From NCBI GenBank assembly GCA_014729775.1, contig WJJJ01000023.1, positions 1 through 56,021 of the forward strand: a stretch of 56,021 nucleotides of DNA, read 5' to 3'. Below are positions 36,758 to 53,774 of the stretch, in pieces. Source of the DNA: Candidatus Omnitrophota bacterium. GTDB taxonomy: Bacteria; Omnitrophota; Gorgyraeia; Duberdicusellales; 4484-171. Position 1 is the first letter of the stretch; each line of letters starts with the position of its first letter. Below the pieces are notes generated by a model. That model ran no database searches and had not been told where the DNA came from. It worked only from the letters and a program-made list of their open reading frames with translations. Made by a program: the position numbers and the translations under genes.

Positions 36758-37141
36758 ATGCAGTTGCAGGGAATGTCGCAGGATAATCTGTGGTGGCCGC
36801 CGAACAAGGGGGAGCTGTACAGAGGGGAGCAGAAACTGACCCGTGAAAAACTGCTGCAGGAGAGGGAACGGGCGGCGGAATTGCCCCCGCAAGAGGGCGC
36901 GCAGCTTCAGGAGGCCTGTAAAGACTTCGAATCTTTTTTCCTCTACTATCTCCTTAAGGAAATGGACAAGAGTGTTGACCGGGAACGGGGGCTGATCGGC
37001 GATACCCGTTCGATGCAAATCTACCGGGAAATGTGGTACGAACAGCTCGCCGAACAAATCGCCGAACGGGGGATGGGTCTGCAGGATGCCCTGTACGAGC
37101 AGGTACAGCGACAGGCGGCAGTCGAGCTGTATAATAAGTAG
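36758..37141 (+). CDS. flgJ: FlgJ-type rod-binding protein (no muramidase domain)
   Basis: A 127-residue protein with only the rod-binding domain: LQEACKDFESFFLYYLLKEM, RSMQIYREMWYEQLAEQIAE and RGMGLQDALYEQVQ. The C-terminal peptidoglycan hydrolase domain of enterobacterial FlgJ is absent, so a separate enzyme must open the wall. GGAGGAAAA precedes the ATG. Confidence 0.9.
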   Translation: MQLQGMSQDNLWWPPNKGELYRGEQKLTREKLLQERERAAELPPQEGAQLQEACKDFESFFLYYLLKEMDKSVDRERGLIGDTRSMQIYREMWYEQLAEQIAERGMGLQDALYEQVQRQAAVELYNK

Positions 37142-37183
37142 TTCCTTCTGCGGGGCGGAGTCAGGTAATCGGTGAGTCATTGT

Positions 37184-37684
37184 ATGAATACGCATGCATC
37201 AACGCGGTACAGAAACGAACTTTGTGAGGTGCTTCGGCGGCTTCTTCGTCTGTACGAACGGGCGTTGTCGGTGAGCCGGGAAAAGACGACTGCGCTGACC
37301 GAAAATAAGATTGACAATATTAAGAATACGACCGGGGTGATCCAACAGCTGGGGGAGCAAATCGAGCAGGCAGAAGAGGCCCGCGGCGCTTTGATGGAGA
37401 AAATTTCCGGCGCGGAGGGACAAACCCCCGGGAAGCTCACCCTTCGCGCACTCGCGGGGCTCTGGGAAGACGAGGAGGTTCTGGCGCTGCGCGGCGACCT
37501 GCGCCGGGTGCTTGCCGAATTAAAAAAGGTGAGCGAACGCAATGCGCTCCTTGTCGGTCAAGCCCAGAAAGTGTATTCATTTTTATCGCAGATTTATTAT
37601 TCGGCATTCGAATCCCGAGGCGGCTATAACGCGCAGGGGAACCGGGAAAAACGTCAGGGAGGATATTTTGAAGGTGAAGTTTGA
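37184..37684 (+). CDS. flgN: FlgN-family export chaperone
   Basis: A 166-residue helical protein placed, as flgN usually is, between flgJ and the FlgM/FlgK genes. A long N-terminal helix (NELCEVLRRLLRLYERALSV), a central alpha-hairpin (NTTGVIQQLGEQIEQAEEAR) and the end NALLVGQAQKVYSFLSQIYY fit FlgN. It would hold FlgK and FlgL before export. Start is uncertain: ATG 37184 (GGTGAG upstream) is taken; GTG 37172 is possible. Confidence 0.82.
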   Translation: MNTHASTRYRNELCEVLRRLLRLYERALSVSREKTTALTENKIDNIKNTTGVIQQLGEQIEQAEEARGALMEKISGAEGQTPGKLTLRALAGLWEDEEVLALRGDLRRVLAELKKVSERNALLVGQAQKVYSFLSQIYYSAFESRGGYNAQGNREKRQGGYFEGEV

Positions 37685-38342
37685 GCGTGAAAAGAGAATA
37701 TTCGTGGTCGCCAAGGCGGGACGGGCGAAAGATATTCCGCTTGAATTTATAAAGAAATACGCGCCGCGCATGCGGGGAGCGGGGATTCACGCCATGAGCA
37801 TGAAGATCCACAGCCGCAGGGACCTTGAATCTTTAGGGGAGCGGGCTCCGCTGTTAAAGAGAAGGAATGTGTATGTAGTGGCGAATATGAGCACGACGCT
37901 GCCCCTGCAGGGCGCGTATCTTCCGGTTGATGCCTTTCAGGTAGAGTTTTCCCGGCTGAGGCAGAGTCAGTTACTGCCGCTGGTGCAGTCTGAAGGGATT
38001 CCCGTGTTTGCCGATTTTGTACCCAAAGATTTGCCTTCGGTGAAGAAATTTCTTGGTGATCAATGGAAAAAACGCGCCTTCCCGCTGGTGCTCATGGCCA
38101 GTGCGGCCAGAGAGGAAATCTTCCGTTCACTGTCACATATCCGCAAAAAGTCGTTGTATACCGGCTATACCGACCGCACCGAAGGGGTGGTCAGCGGAAT
38201 TCTCGCACTGTCCTGGGGGGCACAGGTAGTGGAAAAGCGAATCCGCACTTCGCGCGCCTCAGGGGTTGCGCACAGCTATTCATTCGACGAACTCAAAATT
38301 TACGCATCTCTCCTCAAAGAAACCAAACGCCACCTGGGATAA
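37668..38342 (+). CDS. NeuB-like barrel pseudoenzyme with both metal histidines replaced
   Basis: A 224-residue protein from TTG 37668 (AGGGAGG 5 bases upstream; overlaps flgN by 17). The C-terminal half follows the sialic-acid-synthase barrel: GYTDRTEGVVSGILALSWGA and QVVEKRIRTSR, then a helix like the end of the barrel, parallel to FSDHSEG and VIEKHFTLD in the intact synthase at 40015. In NeuB the His of SDH and the His of EKH bind Mn2+; here both are Arg (R170, R191). The N-terminal NHxG motif and the C-terminal SAF domain are also absent. It is therefore probably non-catalytic. Its place between flgN and flgM suggests a chaperone or regulatory role; this is inference. Confidence 0.7.
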   Translation: MKVKFEREKRIFVVAKAGRAKDIPLEFIKKYAPRMRGAGIHAMSMKIHSRRDLESLGERAPLLKRRNVYVVANMSTTLPLQGAYLPVDAFQVEFSRLRQSQLLPLVQSEGIPVFADFVPKDLPSVKKFLGDQWKKRAFPLVLMASAAREEIFRSLSHIRKKSLYTGYTDRTEGVVSGILALSWGAQVVEKRIRTSRASGVAHSYSFDELKIYASLLKETKRHLG

Positions 38343-38405: not shown

Positions 38406-38432
38406 TAAAGTTTTCGGTTAAATTGCCGATAA
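38406..38432 (+). promoter_or_regulatory. sigma28 (FliA) promoter of flgM
   Basis: TAAAGTTT (38406-38413), 11 bases, GCCGATAA (38425-38432): identical to the enterobacterial sigma28 consensus and spacing. It lies ~20 bases before the flgM ATG, so FlgM is made by the sigma factor it inhibits. Confidence 0.93.
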
Positions 38433-38451: not shown

Positions 38452-38784
38452 ATGGATATTTTTCGTCTAGAGAACTTACTCAACGCCCTGAAACTCGGGA
38501 AAAAAGTGGAGCCGACCTCCCGGGGCCAGAAAGGCCGCGAAACGGAAAAGGTCCGCGGCACCCAGTCTCAGGAGTCTGATTCGGTGACGATCTCGGACGA
38601 AGCGGTGCTGAAGTCCAAGGTGGAGGAGTTAAGCGCCGAAGTTAGACAAGAAGGAAACGCGCAAAAGACTGAAAAGATCCGCGAATTAAAAGAGAGAATC
38701 GCGCATAATCGATATTCTGTCTCATCGTCCGATGTCGCTGACCGAATTACCCGCGGGCCGGATGTGTACGAGCAGCTAAAGTAA
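38452..38784 (+). CDS. flgM: Anti-sigma28 factor FlgM
   Basis: A 110-residue protein. The C-terminal sigma28-binding region is clear: SDSVTISDEAVLKSKVEEL, then KIRELKERIAHNRYSVSSSD and VADRI. The N-terminal ~40 residues are polar and probably disordered, as FlgM is when exported. AGGAGGAAAA precedes the ATG, with a perfect sigma28 promoter upstream. Confidence 0.95.
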   Translation: MDIFRLENLLNALKLGKKVEPTSRGQKGRETEKVRGTQSQESDSVTISDEAVLKSKVEELSAEVRQEGNAQKTEKIRELKERIAHNRYSVSSSDVADRITRGPDVYEQLK

Positions 38785-38794
38785 CCACGTGTAC

Positions 38795-40018
38795 ATGGCC
38801 TTATCGAGGAAGCTCCCTGCCATTTGCGGTGGCTTTCCCACCAGAAAAAGATTTCTGCCTTTTCACCGACCATCCCTTGACAGGCGTGAAGAGCGCGCCG
38901 TGTGCGCGGTACTGCGCAGCGGGTGGCTCACGACCGGTCCCAAAACGCATGAATTTGAAGACCGGATAAAAAATTATCTCGGTGCACGGTACGTGAAAGC
39001 GGTCAATTCCTGTACCGCCGGACTTCATTTGGGGCTTCTCTGTGCGGAGGTGGGCCCCGGAGATGAAGTGATCACTTCTCCGCTGACGTTTGCGTCGACC
39101 GGAAACGTGATCCAGTATCAGCGGGCGCGTCCGGTGTTCGCGGATGTGGATCCGGACACCGGAGCGTTGGATGCCGCGCATGTCCGCCGTGCCCTGACTG
39201 CCAAAACAAAAGCGGTGGTGCCCGTGCATTACGCCGGGATTCCGGCGGACATAGCCGCGATCCGGCGGGCGGTAAGAGGACGGCCGGTGCGCGTCGTGGA
39301 AGACGCGGCGCACGCGTTCGGGGCGGCAGACCGGGGGGAGAAAATAGGCCGGAATTCCTACTTTGCCGCATACAGTTTTTACGCGACAAAAAACCTTACT
39401 ACCGGCGAGGGAGGCGCGATCGCGACCAGGTCGAAGTCGGTCGCCCAGCGCGTGGAGTGTCTCCGCCTGCACGGATTGAGTCACCATGCCTGGAAGCGCT
39501 ACTTAGACAAAAATTTTAAGTACCGTGGTCTTGAAGTGAAGGAACTCGGCTACAAATACAATTGCTCGGATGTGCAGGCCGCTCTGGGCTGTGTACAGCT
39601 CGAAAAATACCCGCGGTTCCTCGCTGCCAGACGCCGGATCGCACAGTGGTATGACGCGGCCTTCCGGGAAAGCGAATGGGTCCGGCCTTTGACGCATCCC
39701 TTTTCTTCGACCCGCAGGTCGGCGTATCATCTCTATGTGGTGAAGCTGTGTCTGGAAAAACTCAAGATCACCCGGGATCAGTTCGTTCAGGCACTGCAAA
39801 AAGAAAATATCGGGGCGAGTGTCCATTTCAAAGCGCTCCATTTTCATTCGTGGTACCGGAAACGGTTCGGTCTTCCCCCGGGGTCGTGTCCGGCAGGGGA
39901 AGATTTGTCTTCCCGGGTCGTTTCTCTCCCGCTTTATCCGGACATGCGGCGGAGTGATGTGCAGGATGCGGCGGCGGCGGTGCAGAAACTAGGATGCTAT
40001 TTCCACCGGAAGCGATGA
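38795..40018 (+). CDS. DegT/DnrJ/EryC1 aminotransferase (PseC/LegC-like)
   Basis: A 407-residue PLP enzyme. Family motifs: RSGWLTTGPKTHEFE, NSCTAGLHLGL, VVEDAAHAFGA and the PLP-lysine site SFYATKNLTTGEGG. It would transaminate the 4-keto group of a UDP-6-deoxy sugar made by a PseB-type dehydratase such as that at 54200. PseC (pseudaminic) is favoured over LegC because a PseG-like domain is nearby. ATG 38795 is used; GTG 38789 is possible, and neither has a good ribosome site. Confidence 0.85.
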   Translation: MALSRKLPAICGGFPTRKRFLPFHRPSLDRREERAVCAVLRSGWLTTGPKTHEFEDRIKNYLGARYVKAVNSCTAGLHLGLLCAEVGPGDEVITSPLTFASTGNVIQYQRARPVFADVDPDTGALDAAHVRRALTAKTKAVVPVHYAGIPADIAAIRRAVRGRPVRVVEDAAHAFGAADRGEKIGRNSYFAAYSFYATKNLTTGEGGAIATRSKSVAQRVECLRLHGLSHHAWKRYLDKNFKYRGLEVKELGYKYNCSDVQAALGCVQLEKYPRFLAARRRIAQWYDAAFRESEWVRPLTHPFSSTRRSAYHLYVVKLCLEKLKITRDQFVQALQKENIGASVHFKALHFHSWYRKRFGLPPGSCPAGEDLSSRVVSLPLYPDMRRSDVQDAAAAVQKLGCYFHRKR

Positions 40019-41040
40019 GAAAAAAGATACCGAAAAAAAAGAGGTTTTTTTCTTCGGACCGGCCGGTATGGATTATCGCCGAAGCCGGGCTGAATCACAA
40101 CGGAGATCCGGCAGCCGCCCGCAAGCTGGTTGACGCGGCGCACGCGGCCGGAGCCGACGCGGTAAAATTTCAGGTGTTCCGTCCGGAATCGTTGTGCAGT
40201 AAAGAGAGCGCACATTTTGCGCTCTTCTCGCGGCTGGCCCTGAACGAAGACGTCTGGCGGGATCTCGCGCGGCGTGCGGCCCGTAAAGGGATCGTTTTTT
40301 TTGCCAGCTGCTTCGACCGTGAGTCCGTGGATCTGCTCAATGCGCTGGGGGTGCCGGGGTTTAAGATCGCTTCCGGGGATCTCACGCACCTTCCGCTTAT
40401 TCGGTACGCGGCATCCAAAAAAAAATTCCTGATCATTTCGACCGGCATGTCCCTGCCTGCGGAGATCCGCGCCGCGGTGGATACCGCGAAGCGGGGCGGC
40501 GCGTCGGAAAGCGTGCTTTTGCACTGTATTTCTCACCGTCCTGCCAAGCTTGAAGAGCTTAATCTGCGGGTGATTCAGTGGCTTGAACGTACCTTCGCGC
40601 TCCCGGCGGGATTCTCCGATCACAGTGAAGGGCTGTTCGCCCCGGTTGCGGCGGTATGTGCCGGCGCGCGGGTGATTGAAAAACATTTTACCCTCGACAA
40701 AGACGCGTCCGGACCGGATCACCGGCTGTCACTCGATCCGGAAGATTTTTCGGAGATGGTGCGGATGATCAGGTCAACGGAAGTGGTGTTGGGCGAACCG
40801 CAGCGGCGGGTGTACGCCTGCGAAGGCGAACGCCGTACCGGCTCACGGCGGAGTCTCTACGCCGGAAAACAGATTGCCAAAGGGAAACGGCTCACCAGAG
40901 CTGATATCGCAATTCTCCGGCCGGCCAAAGGGATTCTTCCGGGAGAATTCGCCAAGGTGGTAGGGAAGAAAGCGCGTCGGACGATCAATGCAGGAGAACC
41001 ACTTACATGGCGCGATCTCGATCGCTCAGCCCAAAAATAG
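40015..41040 (+). CDS. NeuB-family nonulosonate synthase (PseI/LegI-like)
   Basis: A 341-residue enzyme that condenses phosphoenolpyruvate with a deoxy-hexosamine to form a nonulosonic acid. The barrel has WIIAEAGLNHNGDPAAARKL (NHxG motif), FSDHSEG with the metal His, and VIEKHFTLDKDASGPDH with the second metal His. A C-terminal SAF (antifreeze-like) domain follows (GSRRSLYAGKQIAKGKRLTR). ATG 40015 overlaps the aminotransferase stop by 4 bases. Pseudaminic acid is the likely product. Confidence 0.92.
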   Translation: MRKKIPKKKRFFSSDRPVWIIAEAGLNHNGDPAAARKLVDAAHAAGADAVKFQVFRPESLCSKESAHFALFSRLALNEDVWRDLARRAARKGIVFFASCFDRESVDLLNALGVPGFKIASGDLTHLPLIRYAASKKKFLIISTGMSLPAEIRAAVDTAKRGGASESVLLHCISHRPAKLEELNLRVIQWLERTFALPAGFSDHSEGLFAPVAAVCAGARVIEKHFTLDKDASGPDHRLSLDPEDFSEMVRMIRSTEVVLGEPQRRVYACEGERRTGSRRSLYAGKQIAKGKRLTRADIAILRPAKGILPGEFAKVVGKKARRTINAGEPLTWRDLDRSAQK

Positions 41041-42755
41041 CGGCATCCGCCGTGATCATCCAGGCGCGTACCGGTTCGACCCGTCTCCCGGGGAAAGTAT
41101 TGATTGAGATCAACGGAGAGCCGATTCTTGATATCGTGATTTCCCGCTGCTGCCGGGCCCGGCTCCCGGGCCGGGTGATCCTCGCCACCACCCGCCGCAC
41201 CCAGGACACGGTCCTTGCCCGACAGGCGCGGGCGTGCGGCATTGGAGTATACCGCGGCGCGGAAAAAGACGTGCTCGCCCGTTTTCTGGGTGCCGCCGAG
41301 GCGTTCGGTCTGGATACCGTGGTGAGGGTGACTGCCGATAATCCGCTGGTATCGCCTGCCTTGATCGATTTCGCATTAAAACGGCACTGCCGTACCCGAA
41401 TAAAATACAGCCGCTTGCGGCTGATGCCGCGCGGTACAGGGATCGAGGTGATGCAGACGGCCGCCTTGCGGCGTTCCGCGGGGATCGCGGGCGGTAAGCG
41501 GTACCGGGAGCACGTGACCCTGCACCTGCGCGAACGCCTGCCGGCGCAAGAGAAACAAGCGCTTGCCGTTCCGGTAAAATACCGCGGTCCCTCCCTGCGG
41601 CTTACGGTGGATGAATCCCGTGATCTCACAGTGATGCGGAAACTCGCCAGGAAATTCGGGAAATTAAGCCAAGTCGATACCGCCCGGATCATCCAATATT
41701 GCGCAGCCTATCCGGAATTGCAGGCGGTGAACCGGAAAGTGACCCAGCGGGAGCGGGGAGGCCCGGTGGTGCTGTTCCGGCTTGATGCCGGCGGCAGACA
41801 TGGCTACGGCCATTTCTTTCGTTCCCTCGCGCTGTTCCGGGAACTGCGCCGCGTGCTGCCCTGCCGGGTGGTATGGGCGGTCAAAGGGAAGGTTCCTTCT
41901 TCCGCGGTTCCGCGGGGTGTGGAAGTGGTATCCTCCGCGCGGCAAAAGGTGCTTTCTGTGATACGCCGGCAGTCGCCGGCGCTGCTCATTGCCGACGTGC
42001 AGGGAGCACTCAATCCCGATGAGGCCGCTCAATGGAAGCGGCAGGGGGGGCTGAAGATCGTGTTGTTCGACGGGCAGGGTCCCGCCGCGTGCTATGCCGA
42101 CCGGGTGGTGAATTCTTTGCTGCGCTGTCCTTTTTCCGGCCGCGGCCGTCTGTGCGGGGCGCGGTATCTGGTGCTTCGTCAGGAATTTGCGCGGGCCCGC
42201 ATCCGCCGCGGGAAGCGCAGGACGCGGAAAGCGCTCAAAACGGTCCTGCTCGCGGTAAGCGCGACTGATCCCGGAGACGTGAGCGCGCGGCTTCTTAAGG
42301 CGCTGAACCAGGTGCCGGGACAATTCACGGTCCATGCCGTTCTGCCGCCGGGAAAACGGGGCCGTGCATGTTATCGCCGTCTGCTCAAGAATTCACCCCA
42401 TTCCATAAAAGTGCATGAACGGCTTCTTCCGCGGCAAATGGCGGAACTCGCGGCGGAAGCGGATATCGCGCTTACCGGCTCAGGGATTACCGCCTATGAG
42501 TGCGCCTGTGTGGGAGTTCCCCTGATCACGGTCAATACCGCTCCTTGGCACCGCGGCCGGATCCTGCTGCCCGAATACGGTTTCAGTGTCCATTTCGCGC
42601 AGGTCTCCTCCCGGGGCATTCTCAGAACGATGCGTACACTCCGGGATCCCGCGGCGAGAGAGAGGCTTTCCCGCCGCGCCCGGGCCGCAGTGGACGGGAA
42701 AGGTGCCGGCCGGATCGTGGAGATGTTAGTTGATTTGATTCGGGGAAAAGAGTAA
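41007..42755 (+). CDS. Fusion: SpsF/PseF-like cytidylyltransferase + PseG-like hydrolase
   Basis: A 582-residue protein. Residues ~12-245 are a nucleotidyltransferase of the SpsF/PseF type (AVIIQARTGSTRLPGKVLIE; VVRVTADNPLVSPALIDFAL), which would make the CMP-sugar. Residues ~250-575 match PseG, the UDP-sugar hydrolase: RLDAGGRHGYGHFFRSLALF with the catalytic-type GHxxR His, then IALTGSGITAYECACVGVPL. The two activities act before and after NeuB, so the fusion joins separate steps. ATG 41007 overlaps neuB by 34 bases with AGGAGAA upstream. Confidence 0.85.
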   Translation: MARSRSLSPKIAASAVIIQARTGSTRLPGKVLIEINGEPILDIVISRCCRARLPGRVILATTRRTQDTVLARQARACGIGVYRGAEKDVLARFLGAAEAFGLDTVVRVTADNPLVSPALIDFALKRHCRTRIKYSRLRLMPRGTGIEVMQTAALRRSAGIAGGKRYREHVTLHLRERLPAQEKQALAVPVKYRGPSLRLTVDESRDLTVMRKLARKFGKLSQVDTARIIQYCAAYPELQAVNRKVTQRERGGPVVLFRLDAGGRHGYGHFFRSLALFRELRRVLPCRVVWAVKGKVPSSAVPRGVEVVSSARQKVLSVIRRQSPALLIADVQGALNPDEAAQWKRQGGLKIVLFDGQGPAACYADRVVNSLLRCPFSGRGRLCGARYLVLRQEFARARIRRGKRRTRKALKTVLLAVSATDPGDVSARLLKALNQVPGQFTVHAVLPPGKRGRACYRRLLKNSPHSIKVHERLLPRQMAELAAEADIALTGSGITAYECACVGVPLITVNTAPWHRGRILLPEYGFSVHFAQVSSRGILRTMRTLRDPAARERLSRRARAAVDGKGAGRIVEMLVDLIRGKE

Positions 42756-42764
42756 AATAACGCT

Positions 42765-43964
42765 ATGAATTTTATCTTCATTGTTGCCGACTGCGCCCGG
42801 GCCGATTATGTGAATGAACCTTCCCGCTACGGTCTTTGCGCTGATACCCTTGATGCCCTGCGCGCCCGAGGAACTACTTTTCTGAACGCGGTGACCGTCG
42901 CGCCCTGGACCAATCCCGCGATTTCAAGTATGCTGACCGGCAGATATCCGTTTAAATTGAATACCTATCAGCACCGCGGCACCATTCCTTCCTCCTGCGT
43001 TACGCTCCAGTCGTTTTTTGAGCAAAGGCAATACGCGGTCGCCTCTTTTTTTAACACCAGAGGGCTGTTTGGTGATTCTCCGGTGGCAGAAGCCGGAACG
43101 ACGCGGGATATCCCGGTGATTCTTGACTGGATTAAAGGGCATGCCGGCCGCCCTTTCTTTTTGTTCCTGCACTACTGGCAGACGCATCCGCCTTATTTTT
43201 ACCGGTATTCGAAAGAATCCTGGTACCGGGGAAAAGACAGGGTGGTGGAATTGCTGCGCAGCGGCGGTCAGGGCCGGGAAGTGGTCCGGAGGCGTTACGC
43301 GGACGCGGTCGAGCGGTTCAGTGAGGAGTTCCTGGAGGCGGTGCTCGATCAGATTGACCGGCTTCATCTGCGGGATGAAACCAATATTGTGCTTACCGGA
43401 GATCACGGAGAATCTTTCGGCGACCGTACCGGGCAAGTGCGTGATTTATTCGCGATGCACGGCGAAAGTTTGTATGACGAAGTTCTGAGAGTGCCGTTGA
43501 TTGCCGCGGGTCCGGCCTTTCCGAGAGGAGAGAAGATACCGTTTCAGGTAAGGAATATGGATATATACGAAACACTGCGTGACGTGGCCGGAGGCGGTTC
43601 CCGGCCGGAAGAGGTGGACAGCCGTTCCCTCCGCCCGTTATGGGAGCAAAGGGAGCGCGGTGCAAGGACCGCGATCGTTTCGACTACGTATGCCTATTTT
43701 CCCCGGGAAGAGACGCTGGAGGCGTTTTCCAAATACGCGGTGCGCGACGGCGAATGGAAGTATCTGCTGGATCTGCGCCAGGAGAGGGAAGAATTATACC
43801 ACCTGTCTCAAGATCCTGAAGAACAAAAGAACGTCCTTGAGAAATATCCCGAGCAACGAAGCCGTCTGGAGAAGGTACTGCGGGATCACGTTGAAATCGG
43901 CGGGCATACCCCGGAAGAGAAAGAAGCGCTGCGGCAGCAGCTAGAAGATTTAGGATATCTCTGA
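42765..43964 (+). CDS. Sulfatase-like alkaline-phosphatase-superfamily protein with Thr nucleophile
   Basis: A 399-residue protein of the sulfatase/phosphotransferase superfamily: metal motif near the start (VADCARADYV), TGDHGESFGD (~203-212) and an end like WKYLLDLRQEREELYHLS and DPEEQKN. The nucleophile region reads APWTNPAISSMLTGRYP, so the formylglycine Cys of C-x-P-x-R sulfatases is Thr49 and the Arg is Ile53. A Thr is used by phosphoethanolamine and lipoteichoic-acid type transferases. Its place among sugar genes suggests phospho-modification of a glycan or flagellin; this is inference. No membrane helix is seen. Confidence 0.78.
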   Translation: MNFIFIVADCARADYVNEPSRYGLCADTLDALRARGTTFLNAVTVAPWTNPAISSMLTGRYPFKLNTYQHRGTIPSSCVTLQSFFEQRQYAVASFFNTRGLFGDSPVAEAGTTRDIPVILDWIKGHAGRPFFLFLHYWQTHPPYFYRYSKESWYRGKDRVVELLRSGGQGREVVRRRYADAVERFSEEFLEAVLDQIDRLHLRDETNIVLTGDHGESFGDRTGQVRDLFAMHGESLYDEVLRVPLIAAGPAFPRGEKIPFQVRNMDIYETLRDVAGGGSRPEEVDSRSLRPLWEQRERGARTAIVSTTYAYFPREETLEAFSKYAVRDGEWKYLLDLRQEREELYHLSQDPEEQKNVLEKYPEQRSRLEKVLRDHVEIGGHTPEEKEALRQQLEDLGYL

Positions 43965-44721: not shown

Positions 44722-44748
44722 TAAAGTTTCCTTTAAATATACCGATAA
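44722..44748 (+). promoter_or_regulatory. sigma28 promoter of the flgK operon
   Basis: TAAAGTTT (44722-44729), 11 bases, ACCGATAA (44741-44748): one mismatch from consensus. It lies ~22 bases before the gene at 44771 and should drive flgK-flgL as well. Confidence 0.9.
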
Positions 44749-44770
44749 TAATAATGACGAGAGGGAAGTG

Positions 44771-44986
44771 ATGAAAAGCGTTGCAATGAAATACACTCAG
44801 GAAAAGGCCGGCGGGAAAATGCAAATGCTTCCGCACGCGTTTAATTATATGCTCAAAGAGGAGATCCTGCAGAGAGCGGCCGAAGTGAACAGCGAACGGG
44901 TACGGCGTCTGAAGCGGCGGCTCGTCGCCCGGAAAGTGCGACTGGCGAGCAGTCTGGTTGCGAAAAAAATCATGGAGGGTGTTTAA
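44771..44986 (+). CDS. Small basic helical protein leading the flgK operon
   Basis: A 71-residue protein, mostly helix, with a very basic C-terminal half (RVRRLKRRLVARKVRLASSL). No family is recognised. It is the first gene behind a sigma28 promoter and its stop overlaps the flgK start, so it is coexpressed with hook-junction proteins. It could be an export cofactor, chaperone or regulator. ATG 44771 has GAGGGAA upstream. Confidence 0.7.
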   Translation: MKSVAMKYTQEKAGGKMQMLPHAFNYMLKEEILQRAAEVNSERVRRLKRRLVARKVRLASSLVAKKIMEGV

Positions 44987-49675: not shown

Positions 49676-51544
49676 ATGATCTCCGGAATTAGCGGTACAA
49701 ACATCAACATTAATCTGATCGTTGAGCAGTTATTGGCGCGCGCGTCAACGCCGCTCATCCGGCTGGGGACACGCCAGGAAACGTTTACCGAAGAATTGAA
49801 CTCCCTGCAGCGGGTGCAGTCGAAACTGACCGCGTTCCGCAGCGAAGTCGCCACGCTGAAGTCGCTTACCAGTACGGTTTTTGACGAAAAGACGGCCGAG
49901 TCCAGTAACGAAAGCGTGCTGACTGCGTTGGCCGATTCTTCTGCGGCGCAGGGAATTTACAACATGACGGTGAACAATTTAGCGGCTCAGCATAAGGTCG
50001 CTTCCGACCAGTGGGACGCGACTGGTACCCAGATCTCTTCCGCGGAAGGAGCCGGAGTGCACACGTTGCGGATAGCCATTAACGGAACCGATACCGATAT
50101 AGACGTGACCATAAACGCCGGAGACGATAATCAAACGGTACTTCAGAATATGGCTTCGGCGATCAATTCATCCGCCGCCGAAGCCTCCGCCATTGTCGTG
50201 AACGAGACCGGGACCAGCGCGCGGCTGGTGGTGACTGCCGATGAGATGGGGTCACTTGGCGAGATGGCCATGCAGGATGTTGCCGGTACGCTGCTTTCAT
50301 CCAGCGGGGTGATCGGCGGCCAGCTCTTCGCGGATAATTTTGAATCCGGGGCGGGACAGTGGGCCACGCTGGGCACGGGCGTCATTGCCGGTGATCAGGC
50401 ATCTTCCCCTACGCAGAGCTTAAAACATACCCAGTATGCCTCCGGCGGGGATGCCTTTTCCAATTTTATCGACGTCAACCCGTCGACCAATTATTCGTTC
50501 TCGGCGGATATCCGGGTGCAGTCCGGCTCGAGCGGCGTGCCCTATATCGGAGTGAAATTTTACGACGCGACTCAGACCCAGATCGGCGAGAATTGGCTCA
50601 TCGGAGGAGGAAGCGCGACACAGGATATCACGCCGGTTCCCACGGACGCCTGGAACACGTATCAGCAGAATTTCACTACTCCCGCGAACGCCGCATACGT
50701 GAAAATCGAAACCGAATATTATGACGAATACAGCGCTCCTGTGTCAGGAGCGGTGTGGTTTGACGATGTTTCTCTGAGCGATCCTTCGGCCGCGGGGTTT
50801 AAAAACGAACTGCAGGCGGCGCAGGATGCCGATTTTGATATCGACGGTCTCAACTTTACCCGTTCCACGAATACTGTTGATGACGCGATTTCCGGTGTTA
50901 CCTTAAGTTTATTGAGCGCTGGGAATTCCACGCTCACCGTGGAACAGGATACCGAATCGCCCTACGCGGCAATCGAAGAATTCGTGGCCGATTACAATAC
51001 CGCCATTCAAACGATCAAAAACCAGACGGCCTATGACGTTGATACCCAGGAAGGCGCGCCGTTATCGACCGATACGTTGGTCAAGCGAGTGACGACTAAT
51101 TTGCGCAGGCTTGCGACGTCCACGGTGGCGGGACAGCCGGAAGCGTATAATTCGCTGGCGATGATCGGTATCGAGGTAGACAAAGAAGGGACAATGTCGA
51201 TCGCCGACAGCGGCAAGCTCACCGCGGCGCTGGAGAACGATCCGGAAGAAGTCGAAAGTTTGTTTAACCGGAGCGGAACCGGGATCGCACAGCGGCTGGA
51301 TGATTATCTGGATTCGATGGTCGATCCCGACGGAAGAATTACCCGGCGCATTGATACGACCAGTGAACGGATCAATGAGCTGAGCGACGAGATTGAAGAT
51401 TTTCAGGAATATTTAGACGGGCTGGAGGAGAAACTGCTGCTGCAGTGGTCGCGCGTGGAACAGCAGATTTCCGCGAACGATTCTCTGAGTCTGTTCATGG
51501 CCCAGCGCCTTTTGCCGACATTCCAGAATCAGCAGGGCGGCTGA
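49676..51544 (+). CDS. fliD: Filament cap protein FliD with inserted carbohydrate-binding-like domain
   Basis: A 622-residue cap protein. The N-terminus (LIVEQLLARASTPLIRLGTR), the QDADFDIDGLNFTRSTNTV stretch and the C-terminal coiled coil (~535-600, LDGLEEKLLLQWSRVEQQIS) are FliD. Residues ~216-371 (50321-50790) are an extra jelly-roll-like module: FADNFESGAGQWATLGTG, SLKHTQYASGGDAFSNFI, YVKIETEYYDEYS and AVWFDDVSLSDPS, typical of CBM4/9-type carbohydrate binding. The insert lies in the exposed head. AGGGAGG precedes the ATG. Confidence 0.93.
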   Translation: MISGISGTNININLIVEQLLARASTPLIRLGTRQETFTEELNSLQRVQSKLTAFRSEVATLKSLTSTVFDEKTAESSNESVLTALADSSAAQGIYNMTVNNLAAQHKVASDQWDATGTQISSAEGAGVHTLRIAINGTDTDIDVTINAGDDNQTVLQNMASAINSSAAEASAIVVNETGTSARLVVTADEMGSLGEMAMQDVAGTLLSSSGVIGGQLFADNFESGAGQWATLGTGVIAGDQASSPTQSLKHTQYASGGDAFSNFIDVNPSTNYSFSADIRVQSGSSGVPYIGVKFYDATQTQIGENWLIGGGSATQDITPVPTDAWNTYQQNFTTPANAAYVKIETEYYDEYSAPVSGAVWFDDVSLSDPSAAGFKNELQAAQDADFDIDGLNFTRSTNTVDDAISGVTLSLLSAGNSTLTVEQDTESPYAAIEEFVADYNTAIQTIKNQTAYDVDTQEGAPLSTDTLVKRVTTNLRRLATSTVAGQPEAYNSLAMIGIEVDKEGTMSIADSGKLTAALENDPEEVESLFNRSGTGIAQRLDDYLDSMVDPDGRITRRIDTTSERINELSDEIEDFQEYLDGLEEKLLLQWSRVEQQISANDSLSLFMAQRLLPTFQNQQGG

Positions 51545-51878: not shown

Positions 51879-53774
51879 ATGGAGAAAAGAGTGTACCAGC
51901 AGAACATGGCGATTATCCGGGACAGATATCCCGCCCTCTATGAAACGCTTGAGAAAACTCCCGAGAATCCCGGGGTGGAGCTATTGCAGGCCCGTAACGG
52001 CCTGCTCACTCTCCGGGTGAACGGGAAGTTTTTCCACAGCGCTTACGATCCGTGGCGGGCAAGTGAATATCTGACCGAGGATATAAAGACCGGCCAGGCA
52101 GAGGGCGTGATCGTACTGGGCTTCGGACTCGGTTATCACGTGAAAAAGATATGGGAGAACCGCGATTTTGACGGGAGTATTCTGATTATCGAACGGGATC
52201 CTTCGGTGTTTAAAAAGGTGCTTCAGCACATCGATTTACGGAATATGCTGCGCGACAGCCGGGTGATCTTCATCGTGGAGGAGGAGCCGGAAGCGGCAGT
52301 AAAAAAGATCGAACGACGGGGGTTTTTTAAGCTGAACATGGTGCATATAGAACTGCTCATACATCCTCCCAGTGTGCAGACATTTCTTGAGTACTACGTG
52401 CCGATCGCGAAAGCGGTACGGGGTCTGGTGAGTTTTACCAAAGGATCCTGGGGTGCGTTGAATATATTCCAGGATATCTGGCCGCAGAATATTTTGAGTA
52501 ACCTTCAGGATCTGGTGCGTTTTCCCGGGACAAAAGAAGTCGAAGGGATCGTGGCGGGAGATCGTGTTCCCGCGATTGTGGTGAGCGCGGGTCCGTCACT
52601 GGATCAGGATATCGAGGAACTCAAAAAACTCAAAGGAAAAGTGCCGATTTTCTGCGTCGGAACCGCGCATAAAGCACTGCACACACACGGATTGGTCCCC
52701 GATTTCGTCGTTGCCCTGGACGCAAAAGAGAGAGTGGCAGAACAGCTTGAAGGCGTGGAGACGCAAGGGGTGACGCTGTTCGCGGTTGATTTCGTCAATC
52801 ATCAGGTCGTCGAACAATTCAAACCGGAAGTGTTTTTTTTCCACTCCACCCAGAATCCCTTCATGATTCTGCTTCCGGAACACCAGCGGTTTAAAGGCCA
52901 CGTATATGCCGGCGGTTCGGTGTGTCATGCCGCGGTGGATATCGCCGCGAAAATGGGATTCAGTCCGGTGGTTCTGGTCGGGCAGGACCTGGCGTTTTTG
53001 GAGAACCGCACGCACGCCGGCGGAACGATCTATGACCGTAAAAGGGTTTCGTTCAAGGACGAAGACGAGTTCAAGAAGAAGAATCTCATTTGGCTGAAAG
53101 GGAACTACCGGGAGAAGGTGGTAAGCACCCAGGTGTTTTACGTATTTTTGAATATGATGGAACGCTATATCAAGAATCATCCGGATACCGAATTCTGGAA
53201 CGCGACCAGTGCCGGCGCGTTCATTGAAGGGGCCCGTCTGGTGAAGATGAAGGATGTCCGGCAGACATACCAAGATTGCGAATTTCTGCCGATGATCCGG
53301 CACCGGCTGGATAAAGTAAAACGTGAATTTACGCCAGCGCTTGACTCCTTTCGTGATCAGCTGGAGCAGAGCCGGGAACAGATGCGCAAAATCACCGAAG
53401 ATCTGGAAATCGGATATGAAAAAGCGTGCCGGCTCAAAGCGTTTCTGGACGGCAATGACGAAGTGAGCCGGCATCGTGAGGAAATTCAGGACATTGTCCT
53501 CACGCTGGATCATCTCGGTACCCAACTGGATTCCAATCCGTATACCAGTATGCTGCAGTACGGCCGGGGATTTTGCCAATTTTTGGCCTTGGATGTGGAA
53601 TTGCGGCATATGCGGCTGAAGGCCGAAGTGCCGAGGAAGATTTGCGCCGAGGCGGGGGGTATTTATAAAGGATTTCTGGACACGTCAACGAATATCCTCG
53701 AGACGATCGAGGATATTTTGGTGAGGGAAGCGATATGGAAACAGGACGTCACGAAAGTCAAAAGTACCGGTTAG
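51879..53774 (+). CDS. Maf-family flagellin glycosyltransferase (DUF115)
   Basis: A 631-residue motility accessory factor. The N-terminal Rossmann-like part (GVIVLGFGLGYHVKKI), the central DUF115 domain (PAIVVSAGPSLDQDIEEL; GSVCHAAVDIAAKMGFSPVV; LVGQDLAFLENRTHAGG) and a helical C-terminus are all present. Maf proteins transfer pseudaminic or legionaminic acid to flagellin Ser/Thr in the cytoplasm. It fits the sugar genes at 38795-42755 and 54200. Confidence 0.9.
   Translation: MEKRVYQQNMAIIRDRYPALYETLEKTPENPGVELLQARNGLLTLRVNGKFFHSAYDPWRASEYLTEDIKTGQAEGVIVLGFGLGYHVKKIWENRDFDGSILIIERDPSVFKKVLQHIDLRNMLRDSRVIFIVEEEPEAAVKKIERRGFFKLNMVHIELLIHPPSVQTFLEYYVPIAKAVRGLVSFTKGSWGALNIFQDIWPQNILSNLQDLVRFPGTKEVEGIVAGDRVPAIVVSAGPSLDQDIEELKKLKGKVPIFCVGTAHKALHTHGLVPDFVVALDAKERVAEQLEGVETQGVTLFAVDFVNHQVVEQFKPEVFFFHSTQNPFMILLPEHQRFKGHVYAGGSVCHAAVDIAAKMGFSPVVLVGQDLAFLENRTHAGGTIYDRKRVSFKDEDEFKKKNLIWLKGNYREKVVSTQVFYVFLNMMERYIKNHPDTEFWNATSAGAFIEGARLVKMKDVRQTYQDCEFLPMIRHRLDKVKREFTPALDSFRDQLEQSREQMRKITEDLEIGYEKACRLKAFLDGNDEVSRHREEIQDIVLTLDHLGTQLDSNPYTSMLQYGRGFCQFLALDVELRHMRLKAEVPRKICAEAGGIYKGFLDTSTNILETIEDILVREAIWKQDVTKVKSTG

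Follow-up and report, generated by a model that had tools for sequence, protein, structure and literature searches.

An apparent pseudoenzyme of NeuB descent encoded between flgN and flgM in one family of Omnitrophota

Between flgN and flgM, in the 56,021-nucleotide stretch of Omnitrophota DNA analysed here (the window, which is the 56-kb contig G000:C18 in a genome of 1.65 Mb), lies a gene whose product, hereafter X, is a barrel relative of the nonulosonate synthase NeuB and not a NeuB synthase. We regard X as a new flagellar pseudoenzyme that descends from NeuB and has a narrow distribution. The reading that we prefer, with a probability of about one half, is that X is a NeuB-family barrel devoid of catalysis, which one Omnitrophota family has taken over for its flagella alone and which likely binds a protein at the hook-to-filament step. 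The fold, the loss of catalytic residues, the conservation, the position and the selection are drawn from sequence and prediction; the inactivity, the protein-binding function and the identity of possible partners are inferred.

The gene and its operon

X (224 aa; 37668..38342, forward strand) was delimited from its open reading frame, Pfam, its orthologues, the structural model and a profile comparison. It begins at a TTG codon 17 bp ahead of the flgN stop, preceded by a strong ribosome-binding site, AGGGAGG (37657..37663, +), which is embedded in the flgN coding sequence. This arrangement is common to the four genomes that carry X, and the overlap between the end of flgN and the start of X (37668..37684, +) is 17 bp in each of them: translational coupling is probable. 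A longer ORF starting at ATG (37542-38342) appears in the mechanical listing of reading frames; it is superfluous.

Upstream of X come flgA, an flgH-like gene (assigned by eye from the sequence), flgI, a flgJ-type rod-binding protein gene (36758..37141, +; PF10135, 47.8 bits) and flgN (37172..37684, +; PF05130, 66.1 bits). Downstream are flgM, encoding the anti-sigma-28 factor (38452..38784, +; PF04316, 38 bits), then a nonulosonate cassette with, according to Pfam, a PseC-type aminotransferase (38789..40018, +) and an intact NeuB/PseI-type synthase carrying its SAF domain (39994..41040, +), a paralogue which served for comparison. These are followed by a CMP-sugar cytidylyltransferase fused in one protein to a PseG-like hydrolase (41007..42755, +) and, further on, by a Maf/PseD-type flagellin glycosyltransferase (51879..53774, +). 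The first-pass annotation, made from the letters alone, had placed the ORF between flgN and flgM, within the rod/chaperone operon and upstream of an intact synthase. This placement is confirmed, and the NeuB-SAF protein at 39994-41040 is the synthase in question. X is the final gene of a rod operon flgA-flgH-flgI-flgJ-flgN-X.

An exact sigma-28 promoter consensus, TAAAGTTT-N11-GCCGATAA, separates X from flgM in the four genomes (38406..38432, +, in the window), so that X is the last gene ahead of the late-gene border; the -35 element even starts within the X stop codon in two of them, G027 and G009. The site of the window is the sole exact match in its genome, where three sites have two mismatches or fewer. 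A scan for terminators on the same strand from X to flgM found none; transcripts of the rod operon may therefore run on into flgM. A second sigma-28 promoter-like site, with one mismatch, lies upstream of flgK (44722..44748, +); between this site and flgK there is also a 72-aa ORF without Pfam match (44768-44986).

Kinship with NeuB and predicted fold

The Pfam NeuB family is matched by all four X orthologues; for the X of the window the match covers residues 162-209 only and scores 21.5 bits, slightly below the cut-off of 22.1, and in the genome scan three of the four reach the cut-off, two of these only together with neighbouring stretches. In a profile-profile comparison with 15 NeuBs taken from these genomes, the four X orthologues aligned over 223 columns and scored 101.6 (98.3%); 100 column-shuffled controls reached 26 at most, and the reversed profile 14.4, which rules out a chance likeness. 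By sequence, the nearest solved relatives are the Leptospira sialic acid synthase and the Campylobacter PseI; PHROGs holds no family for X.

AlphaFold2 predicts a complete eight-stranded (beta/alpha)8 barrel for the X of the window (pLDDT 84, pTM 0.85) and again for the orthologue of G020, which is 30% identical to it (pLDDT 83, pTM 0.84); the two models are not independent, because one four-sequence alignment, merely re-ordered for G020, underlies both. The best PDB match found by Foldseek is for both models the sialic acid synthase 6ncs (E 1.7e-10 for the window and 7e-11 for G020). NeuB, PseI and SpsE structures occupy most of the top ranks, DAHP and KDO8P synthases come next, and the matches include 2nxg and 2nws, entries from engineered interconversion. 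The NeuB-type barrel proposed from the sequence alone is therefore what structure prediction gives.

X thus shares with NeuB, PseI and LegI (PF03102) the (beta/alpha)8 barrel, a full-length profile similarity and the motifs GYxDxxxG and GAxxxEK. It differs from them by the absence of the metal histidines, of NHxG, of KFQ, of the strand-5 serine and of the SAF domain, by its length (224 aa against about 330-360) and by its location in a rod operon. With the KDO8P and DAHP synthases it has in common the barrel superfamily and the lack of a SAF domain; nevertheless it is closer to NeuB in sequence and in fold, and is without the PEP-site residues (compared through NeuB).

Loss of the active site

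R170 and R191 in the X of the window align with the two metal-binding histidines of the NeuB motifs SDH and EKH. The residues that the four orthologues have there are R, T, I or S at 170 and R or K at 191. More broadly, 33 columns are invariant in the 15 local NeuBs, and six of them are kept by every X (G32, G206, D209, G224, E229, K230). All four have lost both metal histidines, the catalytic Glu of strand 1, the NHxG that follows this strand, the strand-2 KFQ, the strand-5 Ser, the Asp of GPDH and the Arg of the SAF domain; this C-terminal, antifreeze-like domain is missing altogether, X stopping after helix 8. The replacement of the Mn2+ histidines by R170 and R191 and the absence of NHxG and SAF, which had been noticed at first reading, are thus upheld by the alignment to NeuBs.

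In the meningococcal NeuB the ligands are contacted by Glu25, Gln55, Asn74, Thr110, Phe112, Lys129, Asn184, Tyr186, Ser213, His215, Glu234, Phe288 and Arg314 (PMC6795526). Matching the two numberings by motif, the equivalent of Glu234 is E189, present in all X, and that of Lys129 is present in three of the four, the X of the window having Gln; the other contacts that fall within invariant columns are altered or missing. GYxDxTxG is retained throughout, and strands 7-8 bear a conserved patch (Y167, D169, T171, E189, K190).

Since most ligand and metal residues are altered or absent, the synthase activity has very likely been lost. There are, however, KDO8P synthases that are metal-independent, so the missing metal site is not by itself proof that X is inactive. 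On the residues that remain—E189, the Lys129 equivalent in three of four, GYxDxTxG—X may possibly bind a ligand or carry out an unusual chemistry.

Orthologues and distribution

Orthologues of X, 30-34% identical, are found in three further Omnitrophota genomes, G027 and G009 in one genus and G020 in another. Both genera belong to the GTDB family of the window, which brings X to three genera, the only independent lineages so far, and each of these genes has a TTG start and stands between flgN and flgM. Absence of the gene from this place in all relatives would have told against the first-pass annotation; three relatives do keep it there. Between G027 and G009 X displays a dN of 0.054 and a dS of 0.22; the resulting dN/dS, 0.24, is also that of flgN. 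X is a genuine and conserved gene, on which purifying selection acts as strongly as on flgN.

Across the family, X occurs in exactly four of 37 genomes, which are the four where Pfam detects FlgN and FlgM, and in none of the other 33. Flagellar status was judged here by these two Pfam families; FlgN being divergent, a flagellated genome without recognisable FlgN may be missed. Six more FlgN-bearing genomes of the sampled class, from two families (f6 and f17), have no X: their flgN is followed by other genes, and flgM is elsewhere. X is therefore an accessory flagellar gene, and the idea that it is universal in flagellated Omnitrophota is ruled out. As proteins with an MptE/Maf domain and NeuB-family proteins are present in all ten FlgN-bearing genomes, the four X genomes among them, X tracks the flagellar operon of one lineage rather than the mere presence of NeuB or Maf.

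A first scan with the single X protein as query found no relatives. One pattern scan of GTDB r220 returned no carriers beyond the same three relatives, and class and phylum samples amounting to 384 genomes yielded no further X. The gene had seemed undescribed at first reading, and this holds: the searchable literature on flgN/flgM with NeuB, on sialic acid synthase pseudoenzymes and on Omnitrophota flagella contains no description of it.

Possible functions of X

We suggest that an ancestral NeuB-type enzyme was recruited as a non-catalytic protein of flagellar assembly or regulation. X would be co-translated with FlgN and made before sigma-28 is activated; both features agree with a protein required at the hook-to-filament transition. 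FlgN is the chaperone of FlgK and FlgL (PMC8527033) and, in Salmonella, has been reported to control the translation of FlgM (PMC4054197). There is moreover a precedent in Salmonella, where RflP (YdiV), a degenerate EAL-domain protein, controls flagellar expression as a regulator of FlhD4C2 (PMC5930307). RflP works like the proposed X, as a degenerate protein derived from an enzyme and acting by protein binding, but it comes from an unrelated family, targets a master regulator and is not encoded with flgN and flgM. The co-translation with FlgN, the early expression and this precedent together favour protein binding as the role of X. The likeliest partners would be FlgN or its clients, or else the FlgM/sigma-28 switch; the glycosylation enzymes are a further possibility. 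Another parallel is offered by FlgV, a small basal-body membrane protein encoded near flhF/flhG, whose family includes Omnitrophota (PMC11607428). Like X, FlgV is an accessory protein at a fixed junction of flagellar operons, recognised through its gene neighbourhood; unlike X it is not a barrel.

A partner of another kind would be the intact synthase itself. In NeuB dimers it is by way of the SAF domain and Arg314 that active sites are shared (PMC6795526), and X lacks both, so that X might enter a mixed dimer, perhaps as an inactive subunit missing the SAF arm, and tune the synthase, delaying glycan synthesis until the filament stage; X also belongs to an earlier transcription unit than the window's sugar cassette. 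We find this doubtful, for X follows FlgN and FlgM, and many genomes of the family have NeuB-type genes without X.

The first-pass annotation proposed a sensor: by binding a nonulosonic acid, or the precursor of one, X would control FlgM or late flagellar expression. The homology with NeuB, the intact NeuB genes and the Maf-type gene present in all four X genomes, and the conserved patch on strands 7-8 are in keeping with it. Against sensing, the residues of the PEP/sugar pocket are mostly lost or variable, and X is kept whether the accompanying genes are of the pseudaminic type (G000) or of the NeuC/NeuB type (G020), or lie elsewhere (G009 and G027); furthermore flagellated relatives with Maf and NeuB do without X. 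The gating of FlgM fares no better, flgM having in all four genomes its own exact sigma-28 promoter 3' of X. Neither half of the proposal is thus supported, and we hold a sugar sensor to be unlikely. Unlikely, too, is a reading that makes the former sugar synthase a checkpoint protein: produced with FlgN, it would monitor how much nonulosonate-modified flagellin, or how much of the synthase itself, is supplied, and hold back the FlgM/sigma-28 switch for as long as glycosylation cannot go ahead.

That X is still an enzyme, with a different chemistry on a related substrate, could be argued from the retention of the Glu234 equivalent and GYxDxTxG in all four proteins and of the Lys129 equivalent in three. 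Yet positions 170 and 191 vary among them, which leaves no conserved set of catalytic residues in place of the lost one, and the pocket residues of strands 1, 2, 5 and 6 differ between orthologues, which makes a surviving activity quite improbable. Finally, a decaying or spurious NeuB fragment, which the truncation, the TTG start and the Pfam score slightly below cut-off might evoke, is ruled out for practical purposes by the orthologues, by the dN/dS, by the conservation of length, start, overlap and place across three genera, and by the complete predicted barrel.

X offers a clean case of an enzyme of flagellin-glycan biosynthesis that has become a fixed and, it seems, non-catalytic component of the flagellar gene programme; the flagella of this phylum have hardly been studied. 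It is also a defined candidate to connect glycan supply with filament assembly, and suggests seeking pseudoenzymes at the rod-to-filament operon junctions of other bacteria.

The neighbouring sugar genes

The sugar genes near X are of the pseudaminic type (PseB/C/F/G-type) in the genome of the window and of the NeuC/NeuB type in G020, where this cassette follows flgM and precedes flgK (G020:C8; L047 8732-16678, L127 1-3305); G009 and G027 have a NeuB-type cassette, located elsewhere and not adjoining X. As judged from these sequences, the cassettes may have been exchanged at one flagellar site, the NeuC/NeuB type of G020 standing where the window has the pseudaminic type. The latter is flanked by the two sigma-28 sites (38406-38432 and 44722-44748). 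Placed between the flgM promoter and the site 5' of flgK, it is probably expressed late, pointing to flagellin glycan synthesis as a late, sigma-28 function here.

Two observations concern the glycan and the filament. Inside the cassette, next to a WbqC-like protein, is encoded a sulfatase-superfamily protein (42765-43964), which raises the possibility that the flagellar glycan is modified in an unusual way. FliD, the cap protein of the filament (49676-51544), bears an insertion resembling a carbohydrate-binding module (CBM_4_9, E 4e-8).
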